Below, piece after piece: positions 16,605 through 30,358 of a DNA stretch of 64,000 nucleotides (position 1 is its first letter; each line of letters opens with the position of its first letter). The notes under the pieces are model-generated. The model was given only the letters and a program-made list of their open reading frames with translations, did no database searches and was not told the DNA's origin. This stretch comes from an uncultured Dehalococcoidia bacterium (GTDB lineage: Bacteria > Chloroflexota > Dehalococcoidia > Lucifugimonadales > UBA3495). Where the stretch lies: contig OX638345.1 in assembly GCA_951813535.1 (NCBI GenBank), forward strand, positions 2,725,158 through 2,789,157, in the 5' to 3' direction. A program made the translations under genes and the position numbers.

Positions 16605-18167
16605 TCACAATCCCGCCACCGGGTCACCGAATTCCGTTCGCAGGTCCCGCTTCAGTACCTTTCCCATCACGTTGCGGGGCAACTCGTCCACGAACACCAC
16701 CGAGCGCGGTCTTTTGAACCCAGCCAGCCGGTCCCGGCAGAAATCAATCAGTTCCTGCTCGGTAACGGCCTGGTCCGACGCCACCACGACTGCCTTGACC
16801 TCTTCGCCCCAATCCAGGTCGGGCACACCGATGACCGCCGAATCGGCAACCCCCGGGTGCTCGGCCAGGATCACCTCGACTTCCTCGGGCGATATCATCT
16901 CTCCGCCCCGCTTGATGAAATCCCGGGCCCGCCCAGCCAGGAAGATGTAGCCGTCCCCGTCCTGCCAGGCCAGGTCGCCGGTGTAGAGCCAACCGCCCTT
17001 CAGCGTGTCTCGCGTGGCATCCTCCTGACCCCAGTAGCCGGTCATCATCCGGGGTCCGCGGGCGACGATCTCGCCCACTTCATCGCCTTCAACCGGATCG
17101 CCGTCTTCCGTGACGATCATCACCTCCACGTCGTCCAGGGGCTTTCCAATCGACGTGAGCCGGCGCAGCTTGGTCTCAACCTCTTCAGCGGTTCCCGTCA
17201 GGTTATGGTCGTCCGGCGGCAGCATGGTGATGGTGGACGCCGTTTCGGTCTGGCCGAAGGCGTTGATGAACCGCGTGCCGGGGAAATTGTCGATGGCCTG
17301 CCGGACCACCGGCAGCGGCATCGGCGCCGCCCCGTAGGTGATCACCTTCAGGGACGACCGGTCAAAGTTGTCGAAGTTCGGATGGTCCATCACCATTTTC
17401 AGCATGGTCGGCACCAGCATCGCCCGGTCGGCCCGATGTTCCGCCACCAAACTCATCCATCGCTCAGCATCGAACTGCGGCATCACCACCAGCGTCCGGC
17501 CTCCGAAAACCGCCGCCAGCGCCGCCTGCAGCCCAGCTACGTGGTACATCGGCACGGTCAGCAGGTTCGTTTCCTCCACGTCGGGGTCCGCTGGTTCCAC
17601 GTTGGTGAGCAGGAACGTGGCGAAACTGTCGTGGGTCAGTTGCGCGCCCTTCGGCACGCTGGTGGTGCCCGACGTGAACATGATCACCGTCGTGGCATCC
17701 TCGTCGTCCTCCGGAAAATGCAGCTGATCGGGGTCGGCGTTGGCCAGCAGGTCGTCGTAGGCGTACCCGCCTTTCGTCGCCGGCGCATCCAGCATCACGA
17801 TGCGGTCCACGGGCAGCGACCCGTCCGCAGGTACCAGGGACAGGTAGCGTTCGCCCAGGAACAGCAAATCGGGCCGCGCGATCCCCAGCATGATCGCCAG
17901 CTCGTCCTCCTTGGCGCGGAAATTGATCGGTACGTAGATGGCGTCTAACTGCGCGGCCGCAAAGTAAATCTCGATCAGGTGATGGCAGTTGGTCTGCATC
18001 GCCGCCACTCGATCACCCTGGCCTATCCCCAGCTCGGACATCGCGTTGGCCAGGCGGTTGACCCGCTCCTGCAACATCTCGAAACTGATGTGATCGCCGT
18101 CGAATACGATGGCCGTCCGTTCCGGAACGATCGCCGACGCGATCATGAGAAACTCGGTGGTGTTCAT
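16605..18167 (-). CDS. Acyl-CoA synthetase (AMP-binding, class I adenylate-forming)
   Basis: Activates a carboxylic acid to its acyl-CoA through an acyl-adenylate. 520 residues. The P-loop is TSGTTSVPKGAQLTH near residue 165. A5-type FGQTETAST near 310, the A7 Asp in WLYTGDLAWQDGDGYIFLAGRARDFIKRGGEMISPEEVE near 395, and the C-terminal catalytic Lys in PRNVMGKVLKRDL (near 505) complete the family signature. All core motifs are intact. It follows a crotonase gene by about 20 bases, so a ligase-hydratase pathway is likely. Substrate chain length is unknown. Confidence 0.93.
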   Translation of the reverse strand: MNTTEFLMIASAIVPERTAIVFDGDHISFEMLQERVNRLANAMSELGIGQGDRVAAMQTNCHHLIEIYFAAAQLDAIYVPINFRAKEDELAIMLGIARPDLLFLGERYLSLVPADGSLPVDRIVMLDAPATKGGYAYDDLLANADPDQLHFPEDDEDATTVIMFTSGTTSVPKGAQLTHDSFATFLLTNVEPADPDVEETNLLTVPMYHVAGLQAALAAVFGGRTLVVMPQFDAERWMSLVAEHRADRAMLVPTMLKMVMDHPNFDNFDRSSLKVITYGAAPMPLPVVRQAIDNFPGTRFINAFGQTETASTITMLPPDDHNLTGTAEEVETKLRRLTSIGKPLDDVEVMIVTEDGDPVEGDEVGEIVARGPRMMTGYWGQEDATRDTLKGGWLYTGDLAWQDGDGYIFLAGRARDFIKRGGEMISPEEVEVILAEHPGVADSAVIGVPDLDWGEEVKAVVVASDQAVTEQELIDFCRDRLAGFKRPRSVVFVDELPRNVMGKVLKRDLRTEFGDPVAGL

Positions 18168-18187
18168 CCTTTCTCCATGCTCAAATT

Positions 18188-18919
18188 CTACTCTCTCGGT
18201 AACCCGGTGGCTGTGGCCGCCGTTCGCTGTTCCAAAGCCAGCCCGGCGTCCAGCGGCATTTCACTTCCAGAGCCCCACGCCGTCTTCAATGCCGCGGCGA
18301 AACCCGTCGGCAACTCGGCCAACTCTTGCGCGATTTCCCAGGCCGCAGGCTCTAGCTCGTCGGGCCCCACCACCCGGCTGATGATGCCGTAGTCGAGCGC
18401 TTCCGCGGCGCCGAAACGACGCCCGGTATACAACAGGTCCAACGCGACCGAAGGCCCAGTGTTGGCCGGCAGCGTCTGGCTCCCGCCGGCGGCGGGGATC
18501 ATGCCCAACTGCACCTCGGGCATGGCGAAAACCGTATCCGCCGCCGCGATTCGCAAGTCCCCGAGCAGTAGGATCTCCACCCCCGACCCGATGCAAAAAC
18601 CGTGCACTGCCACAACTATCGGCTTCTCCAAACCGATCAGTTGACCCCACACGTCCCGCTGCCACCGCGCGTTACGCGCGATCACCTGCGATGGCGCGGA
18701 GCCAAACTCGCTCAGGTCTGCGCCGGCGCAGAAGGCCCGACCCCTGCCGGTGATCAGCAATGCTCCAATTTCCTCGTCTTCCGCCACCGCGTGCAGCGCT
18801 TCGGCAAAGTCGTCCCGCATCGCCACCGAGTAGGCGTTCAGCCGGTCCGGTCGGTGCAGCGCCAGGTGGGCGACGCTGCCCTCCTTCTCAAAAACGATGG
18901 TGCCAAAAGCGTCGCTCAT
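18188..18919 (-). CDS. Enoyl-CoA hydratase/isomerase (crotonase) family protein
   Basis: 243 residues. Crotonase fold with the two oxyanion-hole segments: GRGRAFCAGADLSEF near residues 58-72 and CIGSGVEILLLGDLRIAA near 108-125. In the E-x-x-L-G region MPEVQLGMIPAAGGSQTLPANTG keeps the first Glu of hydratases (E in PEVQLG). Members hydrate enoyl-CoAs or act as isomerases or hydrolases, so the exact reaction is open. It lies between the acyl-CoA synthetase and the PHP hydrolase on the same strand with tiny gaps (20 and 4 bases), which indicates an operon. Confidence 0.88.
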   Translation of the reverse strand: MSDAFGTIVFEKEGSVAHLALHRPDRLNAYSVAMRDDFAEALHAVAEDEEIGALLITGRGRAFCAGADLSEFGSAPSQVIARNARWQRDVWGQLIGLEKPIVVAVHGFCIGSGVEILLLGDLRIAAADTVFAMPEVQLGMIPAAGGSQTLPANTGPSVALDLLYTGRRFGAAEALDYGIISRVVGPDELEPAAWEIAQELAELPTGFAAALKTAWGSGSEMPLDAGLALEQRTAATATGLPRE

Positions 18920-18923
18920 TCGG

Positions 18924-19466
18924 TCAGTCCAGCGGAATCGCCCGCCGCATCATCTCGTCCAGGTCGACCTCGGTGCTGCCCGCCCCAATCTCGGATAGCA
19001 CGTTCGCGTCGCTTACCGAAAAAGTCAGCAGGTCGTACTCCTCGGCCACCCGTTCCGCCGCCGGACGGCGGATGTGCCAGTCGTGGTGATGATTGGCCAC
19101 CTCAATCCCGTGAACGCCATCCTCGATCACGATGTTCGGCGTGTAGTACCCCGGGTGGCAGTAGGTGCGAAACAGTCGGCCTCCGGGCAGATACAGCTCC
19201 GTGCAGTGGTATTCGTCGAATGGACTGATCGCCGGGCGCACGTCGATCTCGTGGCCGGGGATGATAATCACCTCGTTGGGAAAATGCTGCTCCACGACTC
19301 GGTGCAGCGCCATTCCCCAGTCTCGCCGCCAGTGGTCGGTGACCGCGATGCCATCCAGCCCGGCCGCCTTGATCCGCGCGATCACGGCCTCTGCGATCTC
19401 CGGCGTCGGTTCCTGGAAATTGAACATCTCGCCAACGTGGGTATGAATGTCCAGTCGTACGGTCAT
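18924..19466 (-). CDS. PHP-domain metal-dependent hydrolase
   Basis: 180 residues. Metal-binding motifs of the PHP fold are in order: DIHTHVG (residues 5-11), VTDHW near 42, IPGHEID near 70, CHPGYY near 103, EVANHHHDWH near 122, and a C-terminal FSVSDANV. The polymerase and histidinol phosphatase families share this fold, but this short, stand-alone form is of the type usually called a metal-dependent phosphoesterase. Its substrate is unknown. It is nested in the acyl-CoA operon, 4 bases upstream of the crotonase start. Confidence 0.83.
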   Translation of the reverse strand: MTVRLDIHTHVGEMFNFQEPTPEIAEAVIARIKAAGLDGIAVTDHWRRDWGMALHRVVEQHFPNEVIIIPGHEIDVRPAISPFDEYHCTELYLPGGRLFRTYCHPGYYTPNIVIEDGVHGIEVANHHHDWHIRRPAAERVAEEYDLLTFSVSDANVLSEIGAGSTEVDLDEMMRRAIPLD

Positions 19467-19496
19467 AAACTCGCGGTCCCTCAGCGTCCAGTGATC

Positions 19497-20279
19497 CTAA
19501 CGCCCGGTAAAGTTTGGCGCCCGTTTTTCGGCGAAGGATTGCAGACCTTCCGCCCGGTCGTCGGTGCTTTGCAGGATGATGCTCAGGTCGGCCTCCAGCC
19601 GCAGCCCCTGGGCCAGCGGCAGATCGCCGGCGGCGGTAACCGCTTCCTTCGCGTATCGCGCCGCAATGGGCGCCGCGGCAATTATCTGCGCCGCGATCTC
19701 CGCCGCGGTTGCCTCCAGCGCGCTTTGCGGCACGACCCGGTTCACCAGCCCAAAGTCCAGCGCCTCCCCGGCCGTCAGTGTACGACCGGTCAGCAGCATA
19801 TCCCGCGCCAGGGCCGGCCCGACCAGCCGAGGCAGCCGTTGCGTCAACCCGTCAAACGGGAACCCGTCCCGCGCCGGCGCGCCCGCTCCCAGACGCGCGG
19901 TGTCCACTGCTATCCGTAAATCGGCGGTCAGGGCAACTTCCAATCCGTGGGCGATGGCGTCGCCGTTCAGCACCGCCAGGACGGGCATGGGCAACTTCGC
20001 CACGGCGTTGGCCGCGCCCATTCTCTGGAACCACGCCATGCGCTGCGTCAGGTCTGCGGACCGCAAGTCGTCGGGAAGCTGTTCTCGACCCGTCGCGAAC
20101 GTGCCGTCGTTGCCAACGATCGTCACCAAACGCAGCTCATCGTCCAGGCTCAGTTGGCGGCAGCAGTCCACGAGTTCTTCGGCGACCGTTTCGCCGATGG
20201 TGACGTCGGATCCGGCTCCGGGCAAAGTCAGCGTCGCCTGGAACCGGGTCTTTTCGCACTTGATGGTCTCGTAGCGCAT
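19497..20279 (-). CDS. Crotonase family protein (enoyl-CoA hydratase/isomerase-like), second copy
   Basis: 260 residues from the ATG at 20279 (MRYETIKCEKTRFQATLTLP). Crotonase topology is seen in GTFATGREQLPDDLRS, the oxyanion segment LNGDAIAHGLEVALTADLRIAVDTARLG, and ALDFGLVNRVVP. The position of the first hydratase Glu is replaced (GAGAPARDGFPFDG), so it may be an isomerase, thioesterase or decarboxylase rather than a hydratase. No clear ribosome binding site is seen; an in-frame ATG at 20330 would give a 17-residue extension without family likeness. It is first in the minus-strand cluster and divergent from the class I CoA-transferase genes at 20376. Confidence 0.8.
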   Translation of the reverse strand: MRYETIKCEKTRFQATLTLPGAGSDVTIGETVAEELVDCCRQLSLDDELRLVTIVGNDGTFATGREQLPDDLRSADLTQRMAWFQRMGAANAVAKLPMPVLAVLNGDAIAHGLEVALTADLRIAVDTARLGAGAPARDGFPFDGLTQRLPRLVGPALARDMLLTGRTLTAGEALDFGLVNRVVPQSALEATAAEIAAQIIAAAPIAARYAKEAVTAAGDLPLAQGLRLEADLSIILQSTDDRAEGLQSFAEKRAPNFTGR

Positions 20280-20345
20280 TGGTTTAGCGGGAATACTGAT
20301 TAATCGGGCCGGACTGCATCGCTTTATCAAGCCGGCGCATTGGGC

Positions 20346-20375: not shown

Positions 20376-21059
20376 ATGGCATTCAGCAAATTATACGACA
20401 GCGCCGCCGCCGCGGTGGCCGATATCCCCAACGGCGCGACCGTGTTGCTCGGCGGCGTTTCCGGCGCCAACGCTCCCACCGCTCTGGTGTCCGCGCTGGC
20501 AGACCGGAACGTCCGGGATCTCACCTGCGTCTGCGACTCGACCTACTACGGAGCCGAGGCTCTGCACCGCCTGGTGGCTGCCGGCTGCGTTTCCCGCATA
20601 ATTTCGCCTGCCCCATTCGGTTCGGGCAAGGATGACATGGTCCACGAACTTTGGCGCTCGGGCGACTTGACGGTCGAAGTGGTGCCGTGGGGAACACTGG
20701 CGGAACGTATGCGCTCAGCCGGCGCTGGCATCGGTGGCGTTTTCCTGCCGGTGGGCATCGGAACCCGCTTCGCCGAGGGGAAGGAGATCCGCGTGGTCAA
20801 TGGGGTCGAGTGTATGTTTGAGCCTCCCCTGCGCGGGGATTTCGCGTTGATCCGGGCCGCTCGCGCCGATGGCGTGGGCAATCTGGTGTACGTCGGCGCC
20901 CAGAGAGGATGGAACTCCGCCGTCGTCTCCGCCGCCCGCGTCGCCGTCGCCGAGGTCGACCAGGTCGTCGAACCGGGCAGCATCGACCCGGAGCTTGTGA
21001 TCACGCCGGGAATCTTCGTTAACCGTATCGTCCGCGCAAACTCGGCGCCCATTGGGTAG
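20376..21059 (+). CDS. Class I CoA-transferase alpha subunit, divergent (alpha')
   Basis: 227 residues, SCOT/AtoD-type alpha fold. VADIPNGATVLLGGVSGANAPTALVSAL stands where canonical alphas have a GGFGLCGIPE loop, so the glycine-rich CoA-binding turn is altered. WGTLAERMRSAGAGIGGVFLPVGIGT, EGKEIRVVNGVECMFEPPLRGDFALIRAARADGVGNLVY and the ending PGSIDPELVITPGIFVNRIVR are classic. It is followed after 6 bases by a beta'-alpha fusion gene and then by a canonical beta gene. I infer that it once formed an alpha'beta' pair with the N-terminal half of the fusion. The class is SCOT, acetate or 3-oxoadipate CoA-transferase type. Confidence 0.85.
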   Translation: MAFSKLYDSAAAAVADIPNGATVLLGGVSGANAPTALVSALADRNVRDLTCVCDSTYYGAEALHRLVAAGCVSRIISPAPFGSGKDDMVHELWRSGDLTVEVVPWGTLAERMRSAGAGIGGVFLPVGIGTRFAEGKEIRVVNGVECMFEPPLRGDFALIRAARADGVGNLVYVGAQRGWNSAVVSAARVAVAEVDQVVEPGSIDPELVITPGIFVNRIVRANSAPIG

Positions 21060-21065
21060 GCCACC

Positions 21066-22397
21066 ATGACGCTTGCAAGACTGGATGCCCAGAGCGTGGC
21101 GCGGCGGGCCTCCGCCGAAGTCGCTCCGGGTTCAGTGGTCGCTGTTAGCGGCGACTGGTCGACCGCAGTTGCCGATCTGGTCCCTGCGGAAAAGGGCGTG
21201 TGGTTCTTGCGGGCCGGCGGGACGCTGTCCGACCTGCCCATCAGCGCCGCCGACGCCGGCGCAGTCCTGCGCGGGGGCAATGTTGACCTATCGATTCTAC
21301 AGGCCGCGCAGGTCGACTCCAACGGAAGTTTCGCCGGTTACCACGCCGCTGACTACCCCGGGCCACAGGGGCATGCCGGCCTTATCGACCTGGCGGGCGC
21401 TCGGCGTGTCGTCACTGTATTGCCACACACCGACGCTGACGGTTCTCCCAACATCGTGAACTCCCTGACCTTGCCGCCCGACGGCGTCCGTTGCGTCGAC
21501 ACCATCATCACCGACGTCGCCGTTTTCCGCGTGGCTGATACCGGTCTCATCCTGACCGAGTTGGCCCCCGGCTGGTCTGCCGAAGACGTGCGGACCATCA
21601 CGGGCGCCGCCGTTACCTCAGCACCGACCCTCCGCGAAATGGACTTCGCCCTCCCGCCCGGCAACCCGACCAGCAAGATCTACGCCGACGGCCCTTCCGC
21701 CATCGCGGACCTTCCCGACGGGGCAACGGTCTTCATCGACGGCTTCGGCGGACCCGGCGGAATGGCGCACTACCTCCTCATCTCGCTGCGGGACCGCGGC
21801 AGCCGCAACCTGACCATCGTCAGCAACACCGCCGGCATCGCCCGCGTGGTCAGCTTCGGCACTCCACCGGGGCACACCGCCATCGACCACAGCGTGCTGG
21901 TGGAAAACGGCCAGGTCGCCAAGGCCATCGCATCGTTCCCGGTCTCGCCATCGGTCTCCCGCCCGTCCGAATTCGAGTTGGCCTACCGGCGCGGCGAGGT
22001 CGATCTGGAACTGGTGCCCCAGGGCACCCTGGCCGAACGCCTGCGCGCCGGCGGCGCCGGTATCGAGGCCTTCTACACGCCAACCGGCGCCGGCACCCTC
22101 ATCGCCGAGGGCAAGGAAAGCCGGGTAATCGACGGACGTGAGTACATTCTGGAACACGGGCTCCGCGCCGACTTCGCCCTGATCCGCGCCCACCGGGCCG
22201 ACACCCGGGGCAACCTCGTCTATCGCGGGACCTCTCGCAACTTCAACGCGGTCATGGCCCCGGGCGCGCGGGTGACCGTTGTCGAGGTCGACGAAATCGT
22301 GCAACCCGGCGAACTGGATCCCGAAGCGGTGGTCACCCCGGGCATATTCGTCCAGCGCATCGTACGCCGTCCCGATGGCTTCACCGGCTACGAATAA
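21066..22397 (+). CDS. Fused CoA-transferase: degenerate beta' domain plus canonical alpha domain
   Basis: 443 residues. Residues 1-200 align with a class I CoA-transferase beta subunit but are shortened. The catalytic loop, SESG in the neighbouring beta subunit, is RAGG here (VWFLRAGGTLSD), so the essential Glu is absent. CVDTIITDVAVFRV and ILTELAPGWSAEDVRTITGA still match beta. Residues 205-443 are a complete alpha subunit (KIYADGPSAIADLPDGATVFIDGFGGPGG, QGTLAERLRAGGAGIEAFYTPTGAGT, ADFALIRAHRADTRGNLVYRGTSRNFNAVM). The order beta-alpha is the reverse of the usual alpha-beta fusions. The simplest reading is two tandem alpha-beta pairs with the inner beta' and alpha joined. The alpha half probably pairs with the beta encoded 14 bases downstream. 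Confidence 0.82.
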   Translation: MTLARLDAQSVARRASAEVAPGSVVAVSGDWSTAVADLVPAEKGVWFLRAGGTLSDLPISAADAGAVLRGGNVDLSILQAAQVDSNGSFAGYHAADYPGPQGHAGLIDLAGARRVVTVLPHTDADGSPNIVNSLTLPPDGVRCVDTIITDVAVFRVADTGLILTELAPGWSAEDVRTITGAAVTSAPTLREMDFALPPGNPTSKIYADGPSAIADLPDGATVFIDGFGGPGGMAHYLLISLRDRGSRNLTIVSNTAGIARVVSFGTPPGHTAIDHSVLVENGQVAKAIASFPVSPSVSRPSEFELAYRRGEVDLELVPQGTLAERLRAGGAGIEAFYTPTGAGTLIAEGKESRVIDGREYILEHGLRADFALIRAHRADTRGNLVYRGTSRNFNAVMAPGARVTVVEVDEIVQPGELDPEAVVTPGIFVQRIVRRPDGFTGYE

Positions 22398-22411
22398 CCG
22401 GAGTATCCTCC

Positions 22412-23083
22412 ATGTCCGCAGACAAAGAACGCCTCGACCGGGCCATCATCGCGATACGCGTGGCAAAGGAACTGCCCGCCGGTTCCTGCGTCAACCTCGG
22501 CATCGGGATACCCACGCTGGTCTCCATGTTCGTGGACGATGAAAGCGTCGTCTTCTACCACAGCGAGAGCGGTGTGCTGAACTGCGGCCCCCTGGCCGAG
22601 GAGGGAAGTGAAGACATCGACCTGATCAACGCCGGCGGCCAGTTCCTGCAGCCCGTCCCCGGCATGGCCTACTTCTCCTCCGTCGACGCGTTTGCCATGA
22701 TTCGCGGCGGACACGTCGATGTCACGGTCCTTGGCGCCCATCAAGTCTCCGCCACCGGCGACCTCGCCAACTGGATGCTGCCCGAGCGCGGCGTCGGCAA
22801 CATCGGCGGCGCCATGGACCTGGCCGCCGGGGCCGACAAGGTCATCGTCGCCATGGAGCACAACGACCGCAACGGCAACCCCAAGGTCGTCCAGGAGTGC
22901 GACTTCCCCCTCACCGGCCGTGGCTGCGTATCCCTCATCGTGACCGACGTCGCCGTGATGGAACCCACCCCAGATGGCATGGTGCTGCGCGAAGCCGCCC
23001 CCGGCTGGACACCCGAAGAAGTGCAGGGAGTCACCGGAGCCCGCCTCATCATTCCAGACAGCGTGGCCGAATACGAAGTGTAG
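22412..23083 (+). CDS. Class I CoA-transferase beta subunit
   Basis: 223 residues, full canonical beta subunit: CVNLGIGIPTLVSMF near residue 32, the catalytic Glu in VVFYHSESGVLNCGP near residue 52, GGHVDVTVLGAHQVSATGDLANWM, and VTDVAVMEPTPDGMVLREAAPGWTPEEVQ. It should form the active enzyme with the alpha domain of the preceding fusion protein and move CoA from succinyl-CoA or acetyl-CoA to a 3-oxoacid or similar acid. The gap to the fusion gene is 14 bases, so it is surely one operon. The natural substrate cannot be fixed from sequence. Confidence 0.92.
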   Translation: MSADKERLDRAIIAIRVAKELPAGSCVNLGIGIPTLVSMFVDDESVVFYHSESGVLNCGPLAEEGSEDIDLINAGGQFLQPVPGMAYFSSVDAFAMIRGGHVDVTVLGAHQVSATGDLANWMLPERGVGNIGGAMDLAAGADKVIVAMEHNDRNGNPKVVQECDFPLTGRGCVSLIVTDVAVMEPTPDGMVLREAAPGWTPEEVQGVTGARLIIPDSVAEYEV

Positions 23084-23097
23084 GGGCCAGAAAGATC

Positions 23098-23475
23098 ATG
23101 GGCACGTTCTCGGTGATGGTCAGCGTCGGCAACCCCAGCGGCGGCGATCAGGTCCAAATCGAAGCACTGGTGGACACGGGTGCTTCCGACTCGATGTTCC
23201 CCGCTTCTTTGCTGGAAAATCTGCGTCTGGAGCCCCGCTCCCGGGTAGACTACGCATTGGCCGATGGAACGGAAGTTAGGTTCGGACGAGGCCAGGCCGT
23301 CATCAACATCGACGGTCGCGACGGAATCTGTCCCGTGATTTTCGGCCCCGAAGGGGAAGACAACTGTCTGATCGGTGGAACCACCCTCCAAATCTTGATG
23401 TTCGCGGTCGACCCTGTCAATGAAGTTCTGGCGCCGACTAATCGGGGCCGGCTGGGCTTCGGCGGCAAGCTGTAA
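23098..23475 (+). CDS. Retropepsin-like aspartic protease (clan AA), small
   Basis: 125 residues starting MGTFSVMVSVGNPSGGD. A single retropepsin-type domain with the catalytic motif VDTGAS (Asp26) and a flap-side segment ADGTEVRFGRGQAVINIDG. Such one-domain proteins act as homodimers, one Asp per subunit. It lacks a signal peptide or membrane segment. It lies 14 bases after the CoA-transferase beta gene and before the thiamine promoter. A close paralogue with the same length and motifs is at 57917-58276. Physiological substrate unknown. Confidence 0.8.
   Translation: MGTFSVMVSVGNPSGGDQVQIEALVDTGASDSMFPASLLENLRLEPRSRVDYALADGTEVRFGRGQAVINIDGRDGICPVIFGPEGEDNCLIGGTTLQILMFAVDPVNEVLAPTNRGRLGFGGKL

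Positions 23476-28401: not shown

Positions 28402-30358
<1,957 letters not shown>

Follow-up and report, generated by a model that had tools for sequence, protein, structure and literature searches.

Class I CoA-transferases are textbook enzymes composed of an α and a β subunit, and every such pair is assumed to be active. In Thermosipho CtfAB, the acid pocket is formed by Phe24, Asn50, and Gln98 of CtfA, the nucleophile is Glu46 of CtfB, and the CtfB lysines K120 and K147 lie near the CoA phosphate (PMC12400318). Replacing Glu46 with Asp leaves a protein that acts only as a hydrolase, and replacing it with Ser yields an inactive one (PMC12400318). Natural relatives that lack this glutamate are enzymes of other kinds. 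IpdAB of Mycobacterium and Rhodococcus, in which the residue is Gly, is a ring-cleaving hydrolase (PMC5380842), and AibA/AibB of Myxococcus, in which it is Cys56, is a decarboxylase (PMC7756340).

We examined a 64,000-nucleotide window from an uncultured Dehalococcoidia bacterium whose genome is a single contig of 4.38 Mb. The window contains three class I CoA-transferase genes arranged head-to-tail, with intergenic gaps of 6 and 14 bases (Table 1). The initial annotation had described them as adjacent genes for α′, a 443-residue β′-α fusion, and β, and both the coordinates and the order were borne out. The α-β pair shares its fold, its α and β subunit types, its catalytic Glu, and its Phe/Asn/Gln pocket with SCOT/OXCT1, AtoDA, CtfAB, and ScoAB. 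SCOT is also a fused chain, but in the order α-β, whereas the fusion in the window is β′-α. Characterized class I CoA-transferases consist of identical pairs; in contrast, the set described here has four domains, and one of its pairs lacks the catalytic residues. One further ordinary α-β pair is encoded elsewhere in the genome.

Table 1. Features of the CoA-transferase locus, with positions numbered from the first letter of the window.
Feature	Position	Strand	Description
α′	20376-21059	+	Class I CoA-transferase α-type subunit, 227 aa; acid pocket altered: Val28 (for Phe), Asp54 (for Asn), Trp105 (for Gln)
β′-α fusion gene	21066-22397	+	443 aa
β′ half of fusion (residues 1-200)	21066-21665	+	β-type domain without catalytic Glu and without one loop
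Ala50 codon of β′	21213-21215	+	Catalytic Glu position (RAGG)
α half of fusion (residues 201-443)	21666-22397	+	α-type domain; pocket Phe227, Asn254, Gln319 intact
β	22412-23083	+	Class I CoA-transferase β subunit, 223 aa; catalytic Glu52 in SESG, codon 22565-22567
Conserved divergent neighbors	16605-20330	-	AMP-dependent acyl-CoA ligase, enoyl-CoA hydratase, PHP-like protein, enoyl-CoA hydratase; context, outside the enzyme

Profile searches matched PF01144 to every domain of the three genes. The N-terminal half of the fusion matched the B subunit profile TIGR02428, as did β, and its C-terminal half matched the A subunit profile TIGR02429, as did α′. The α-β pair scored 255 and 273 bits, exceeding the NCBIfam cut-offs, and thus carries the PF01144 and TIGR02429/TIGR02428 domains of a class I CoA-transferase. 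The α′-β′ pair likewise has class I homology and the class I fold. The NCBIfam β profile covers β′ only from residue 60 onward (E = 4e-29, profile positions 82-205), and the N-terminal part of β′ also superposes on β in alignments with relatives and in structure comparison. Because one loop is missing, β′ is about 20 residues shorter than β, which agrees with the shortening noted in the initial annotation.

Alignment places the SESG motif of β opposite the RAGG motif of β′, so that Glu52, which lies in the expected (S/E)E(S/N)G context, faces Ala50. No Glu was found in β′ at this position, as had been claimed from the window sequence alone. Pocket positions were mapped by alignment using T. 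melanesiensis CtfA numbering. Where CtfA has Phe24, Asn50, and Gln98, α′ has Val28, Asp54, and Trp105, while the α half of the fusion retains the whole pocket. The glycine-rich loop of α′, previously reported as altered, reads GGVSGAN in place of GGFxxxG; the changes to the pocket Asn and Gln add to that observation. The CoA-phosphate lysines K120 and K147 of CtfB appear to be replaced by Tyr and Asp in β′, and β appears to have Arg at the first of these positions, although these pairwise alignments lie near gaps and are less sure. The Ala in β′ also distinguishes it from an AibAB-type decarboxylase, which would have Cys at the Glu position.

The fusion is not a peculiarity of one assembly. 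Of 50 genomes of the taxonomic family, a group of marine Chloroflexota, 46 carry it, always with the frame open and free of internal stops; these include all 18 good genomes (completeness ≥90%, contamination ≤5%), and all 17 genera are represented. Since it recurs in 46 family genomes, sequencing error, assembly error, and chance are excluded as its source. No other genome in a class sample of 294 had a match that strong across both halves of the fusion. Three other families of the same taxonomic order (f4, f10, and f15) include members with a comparably strong match over both halves, and the named records are SAR202, Dehalococcoidia, and Chloroflexota bins. Plasmid records gave matches below 60% identity only; those with annotation are separate A and B genes of the ordinary kind.

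Fifty loci were read in detail. The order α′, β′-α, β is present in 42 of them, and a contig end cuts three. In two loci from the same order, L095 and L096, nothing is fused, and α′, β′, α, and β are each encoded by a gene of their own. Locus L097 has the usual gene order, but its open frames overlap. The N-terminal half of the fusion in L071 (5842-7224) is too diverged for the search used to detect β′; this is the furthest decayed case. In L098 (genome G052, family f4), α′ and the fusion are present with no nearby β; some 1.6 Mb of the chromosome separates them from the closest one. The α′ gene is present and open at every locus whose contig extends far enough upstream.

Residue states across 45 sets differ sharply between the two pairs. 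The catalytic Glu of β and the pocket residues of α are kept in 45 of 45 sets, so α and β appear intact by sequence, as the initial annotation had expected. The corresponding position of β′ is Glu in 13 sets, Asp in 20, Ala in six, Asn in four, and Thr and Pro in one each, with Cys in none of the 45. The two unfused sets (L095 and L096) and one fused set (L110) have HSENG in β′ and keep Phe, Asn, and Gln in α′, and both of their pairs look active. Because L110 is fused with both pairs intact, the fusion preceded the decay. In the family's other genera, β′ has Glu or Asp in every member examined (27 sets). The window's genus is the family's only case of carboxylate loss in β′: the residue there is mostly Ala, Asn, Thr, or Pro, and two sets keep Asp. 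Replacement by four different residues implies that the side chain here has not taken on one set function. Nor does β′ of the genus show any acid, Cys, or His that is both new and strictly conserved. In α′ of the genus, the pocket Gln position is Gln, Trp, or His, and Asp54 is invariant (14 of 14).

On the tree, Glu versus not-Glu in β′ requires at least six changes; Glu and Asp swap repeatedly elsewhere in the family, and deep branches retain Glu. As read from these states, the loss of Glu is graded and stepwise, not one event. The earlier proposal that the outer α′-β′ pair is non-catalytic therefore holds for the crippled residues of the genus but not as a single loss, given the Glu or Asp of its relatives. 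The Thermosipho mutants E46D and E46S are laboratory counterparts of the natural β′ changes to Asp and to residues without a carboxylate, although in those mutants all sites of one enzyme were altered by design, whereas here one pair of two is affected. Because Asp in place of Glu turns this related enzyme into a hydrolase (PMC12400318), it is fair to call α′β′ dead in the window's genus, but the term may not apply to all relatives.

In an unrooted tree of pairs, a branch with support 97 separates α′β′ (pair 1) from both α-β (pair 2) and the remaining class I pairs. Lone pairs from other families of the order cluster with pair 2. On this evidence the two pairs are neighbors of long-separate ancestry rather than recent duplicates. 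A recent tandem duplication is ruled out by the tree and by low between-pair identity, which is only 53-61% in L095 and L096, where both pairs are intact. The initial annotation read the locus as two tandem pairs whose inner members had fused; the unfused loci bear out the two pairs, but the branch support of 97 contradicts a lineage-specific tandem duplication.

To predict how the domains pair, we used AlphaFold. In locus L039, from the same genus, the three genes share one frame, which allowed the whole set to be modeled as a single polypeptide by reading through the stops. The model had middling confidence (pLDDT 71, pTM 0.69). Its α′ and β′ part (residues 4-428) superposed on pig SCOT (3k6m) over 415 residues (Z 39.4, rmsd 2.5), and its α and β part (residues 433-904) on Trypanosoma ASCT (6lp1) over 431 residues (Z 37.0, rmsd 3.6). 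A read-through model of α′-β′-α from the window had low confidence (pLDDT 60, pTM 0.44) and, because of that pTM, was used for the α′β′ part only, which superposed on SCOT with Z 31.8 and rmsd 2.3 over 313 residues. In this model, β′ alone aligned with the β subunit CtfB (9cry_B) over 186 residues with Z 24.8 and rmsd 2.0. Collectively, the models predict that α′ pairs with β′ and α with β, each in a SCOT-like arrangement, although read-through joins α′ and β′ in one chain and may bias toward their pairing. The predicted pairing is consistent with the residue losses, which fall jointly on α′ and β′.

Both pairs are under purifying selection. By the Nei-Gojobori method, dN/dS within the set of five nearest genomes was 0.185 for α′, 0.176 for β′, 0.040 for α, and 0.088 for β; in a sister set, the respective values were 0.245, 0.348, 0.052, and 0.064. 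A dN/dS of about 0.18 for α′ and β′ indicates that the pair is kept by selection. Pair 1 has longer paths than pair 2 throughout, by a factor of 1.9 across the three sets with both pairs intact, 3.65 across the family, and 7.1 within the window's genus. Thus, α′β′ is under weaker constraint yet kept as protein.

We propose that the three genes encode one α′-β′/α-β complex, organized like the usual class I dimer of α-β pairs. With Glu52 of β and the Phe/Asn/Gln pocket of α, the α-β pair would transfer CoA by the usual ping-pong mechanism. The α′-β′ pair would once have been a second active CoA-transferase, which the β′-α fusion tied covalently to the working pair. After the fusion, the nucleophilic Glu would have been lost stepwise along with the acid pocket, and the window's genus would also have lost a β′ loop, leaving α′-β′ as a retained, non-transferring partner. 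We consider it probable that the set acts as one complex in which α′β′ no longer transfers CoA and holds or tunes the live α-β pair. Within this proposal, the four domains would assemble together, α′β′ would bind no substrate, and its contribution would be to stabilize or regulate α-β. The fuller version, in which the α′-β′-α-β complex is obligate, the fused dead pair controls or stabilizes the live one, and the intact, Glu/Asp, and dead stages survive in living relatives, is about as likely as not. Two observations count against a partner role: the invariant Asp54 of α′ in the genus could mean retained chemistry, and β is not adjacent to the fusion in the f4 genome. Lone α-β pairs of the pair 2 lineage also occur in other families of the order, indicating that α-β is in principle independent of α′β′.

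A dead partner retained with a live paralogue is known from ADAT2/ADAT3, although those proteins are unrelated to the ones described here. In the literature searched, mostly openly available papers, there was no report of a live/dead class I CoA-transferase heteromer or of such a gene set. A whole clade, including deep-ocean SAR202, keeps the second pair after the residues for its chemistry were lost, while deeper relatives are still intact. This intact-to-decayed series in living relatives offers a ready way to test how one half of an enzyme can cease to be a catalyst and become a partner. It also means that CoA-transferase gene counts in SAR202 can overstate activities.

Alternatively, α′β′ may be a different CoA-thioester enzyme, such as a hydrolase, a retro-aldol hydrolase, or a decarboxylase, that works beside the transferase and perhaps passes its product via the fusion. 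We regard this as possible but rather unlikely. Because the Glu-less IpdAB and AibAB have other activities, a second activity is conceivable, most of all in the relatives with Asp, the residue that makes CtfAB a hydrolase. The carboxylate kept in the 27 sets outside the genus, the invariant Asp54, dN/dS values far under 1, and the acyl-CoA ligase and two enoyl-CoA hydratases adjoining the locus all fit such a role. However, the variety of residues at the Glu and pocket Gln positions within the genus, the absence from β′ of any new, invariant acid, Cys, or His, the replaced CoA-phosphate lysines, and the fast evolution of α′β′ argue against it. Kinship with IpdAB in particular is not indicated: α′ is closer to AtoD (E = 4e-40) than to IpdA (E = 1e-6), and the β′ matches, among those listed, are of SCOT/Ato/Ctf types only. 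IpdAB is moreover a single pair with no live transferase partner, and AibA/AibB stands alone and has only distant sequence likeness to the window set.

It is improbable that α′β′ is a decaying, roleless remnant, held in frame only through the fusion of β′ to a needed α. The rapid and uneven evolution of the pair, its loss of catalytic residues, and the escape of β′ in L071 from detection are what such decay would produce, but α′ is a separate gene that could be lost and yet persists in open frame, with dN/dS of 0.185 (own subclade) and 0.245 (sister subclade). That the fusion pairs in cis, β′ with α and α′ with β, to give two mixed half-sites is suggested by β′ and α sharing one chain but is very improbable, since residue losses coincide on α′ and β′, both models place α′ with β′ in the SCOT arrangement and the one containing β places α with β, and fused class I chains are normally α-β, making β′-α the wrong order for a cis pair.

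The divergent block of acyl-CoA ligase, enoyl-CoA hydratases, and PHP-like protein recurs beside the set across the family. Given these flanking genes, the likeliest role for α-β is CoA transfer of the ordinary kind in a pathway for a carboxylic acid. In most family members from other genera, α′ is immediately preceded by a GroEL gene that shares its strand (L053:3123-4760 and about 20 other loci). In the window, groEL (28402-30021) is 5 kb downstream of the set on the other strand, and the genome has three GroEL genes. A small retropepsin-like aspartyl protease domain (PF13975/PF13650) is encoded right after β (22897-23475, + strand).

Other unusual class I loci occur in the class. In other families, L118 (3089-5222) and L119 (4618-6887) each have two different α genes and one β, which could form mixed heteromers; the pocket Gln is kept in all four α subunits, ruling out dead α subunits at these loci. 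Locus L120 (3564-6512) encodes two tandem single-chain α-β CoA-transferases resembling SCOT, with GENG in both. A motif search had suggested L120 as a second live/dead case, but alignment gave QGENG, with Glu intact, in the second chain.
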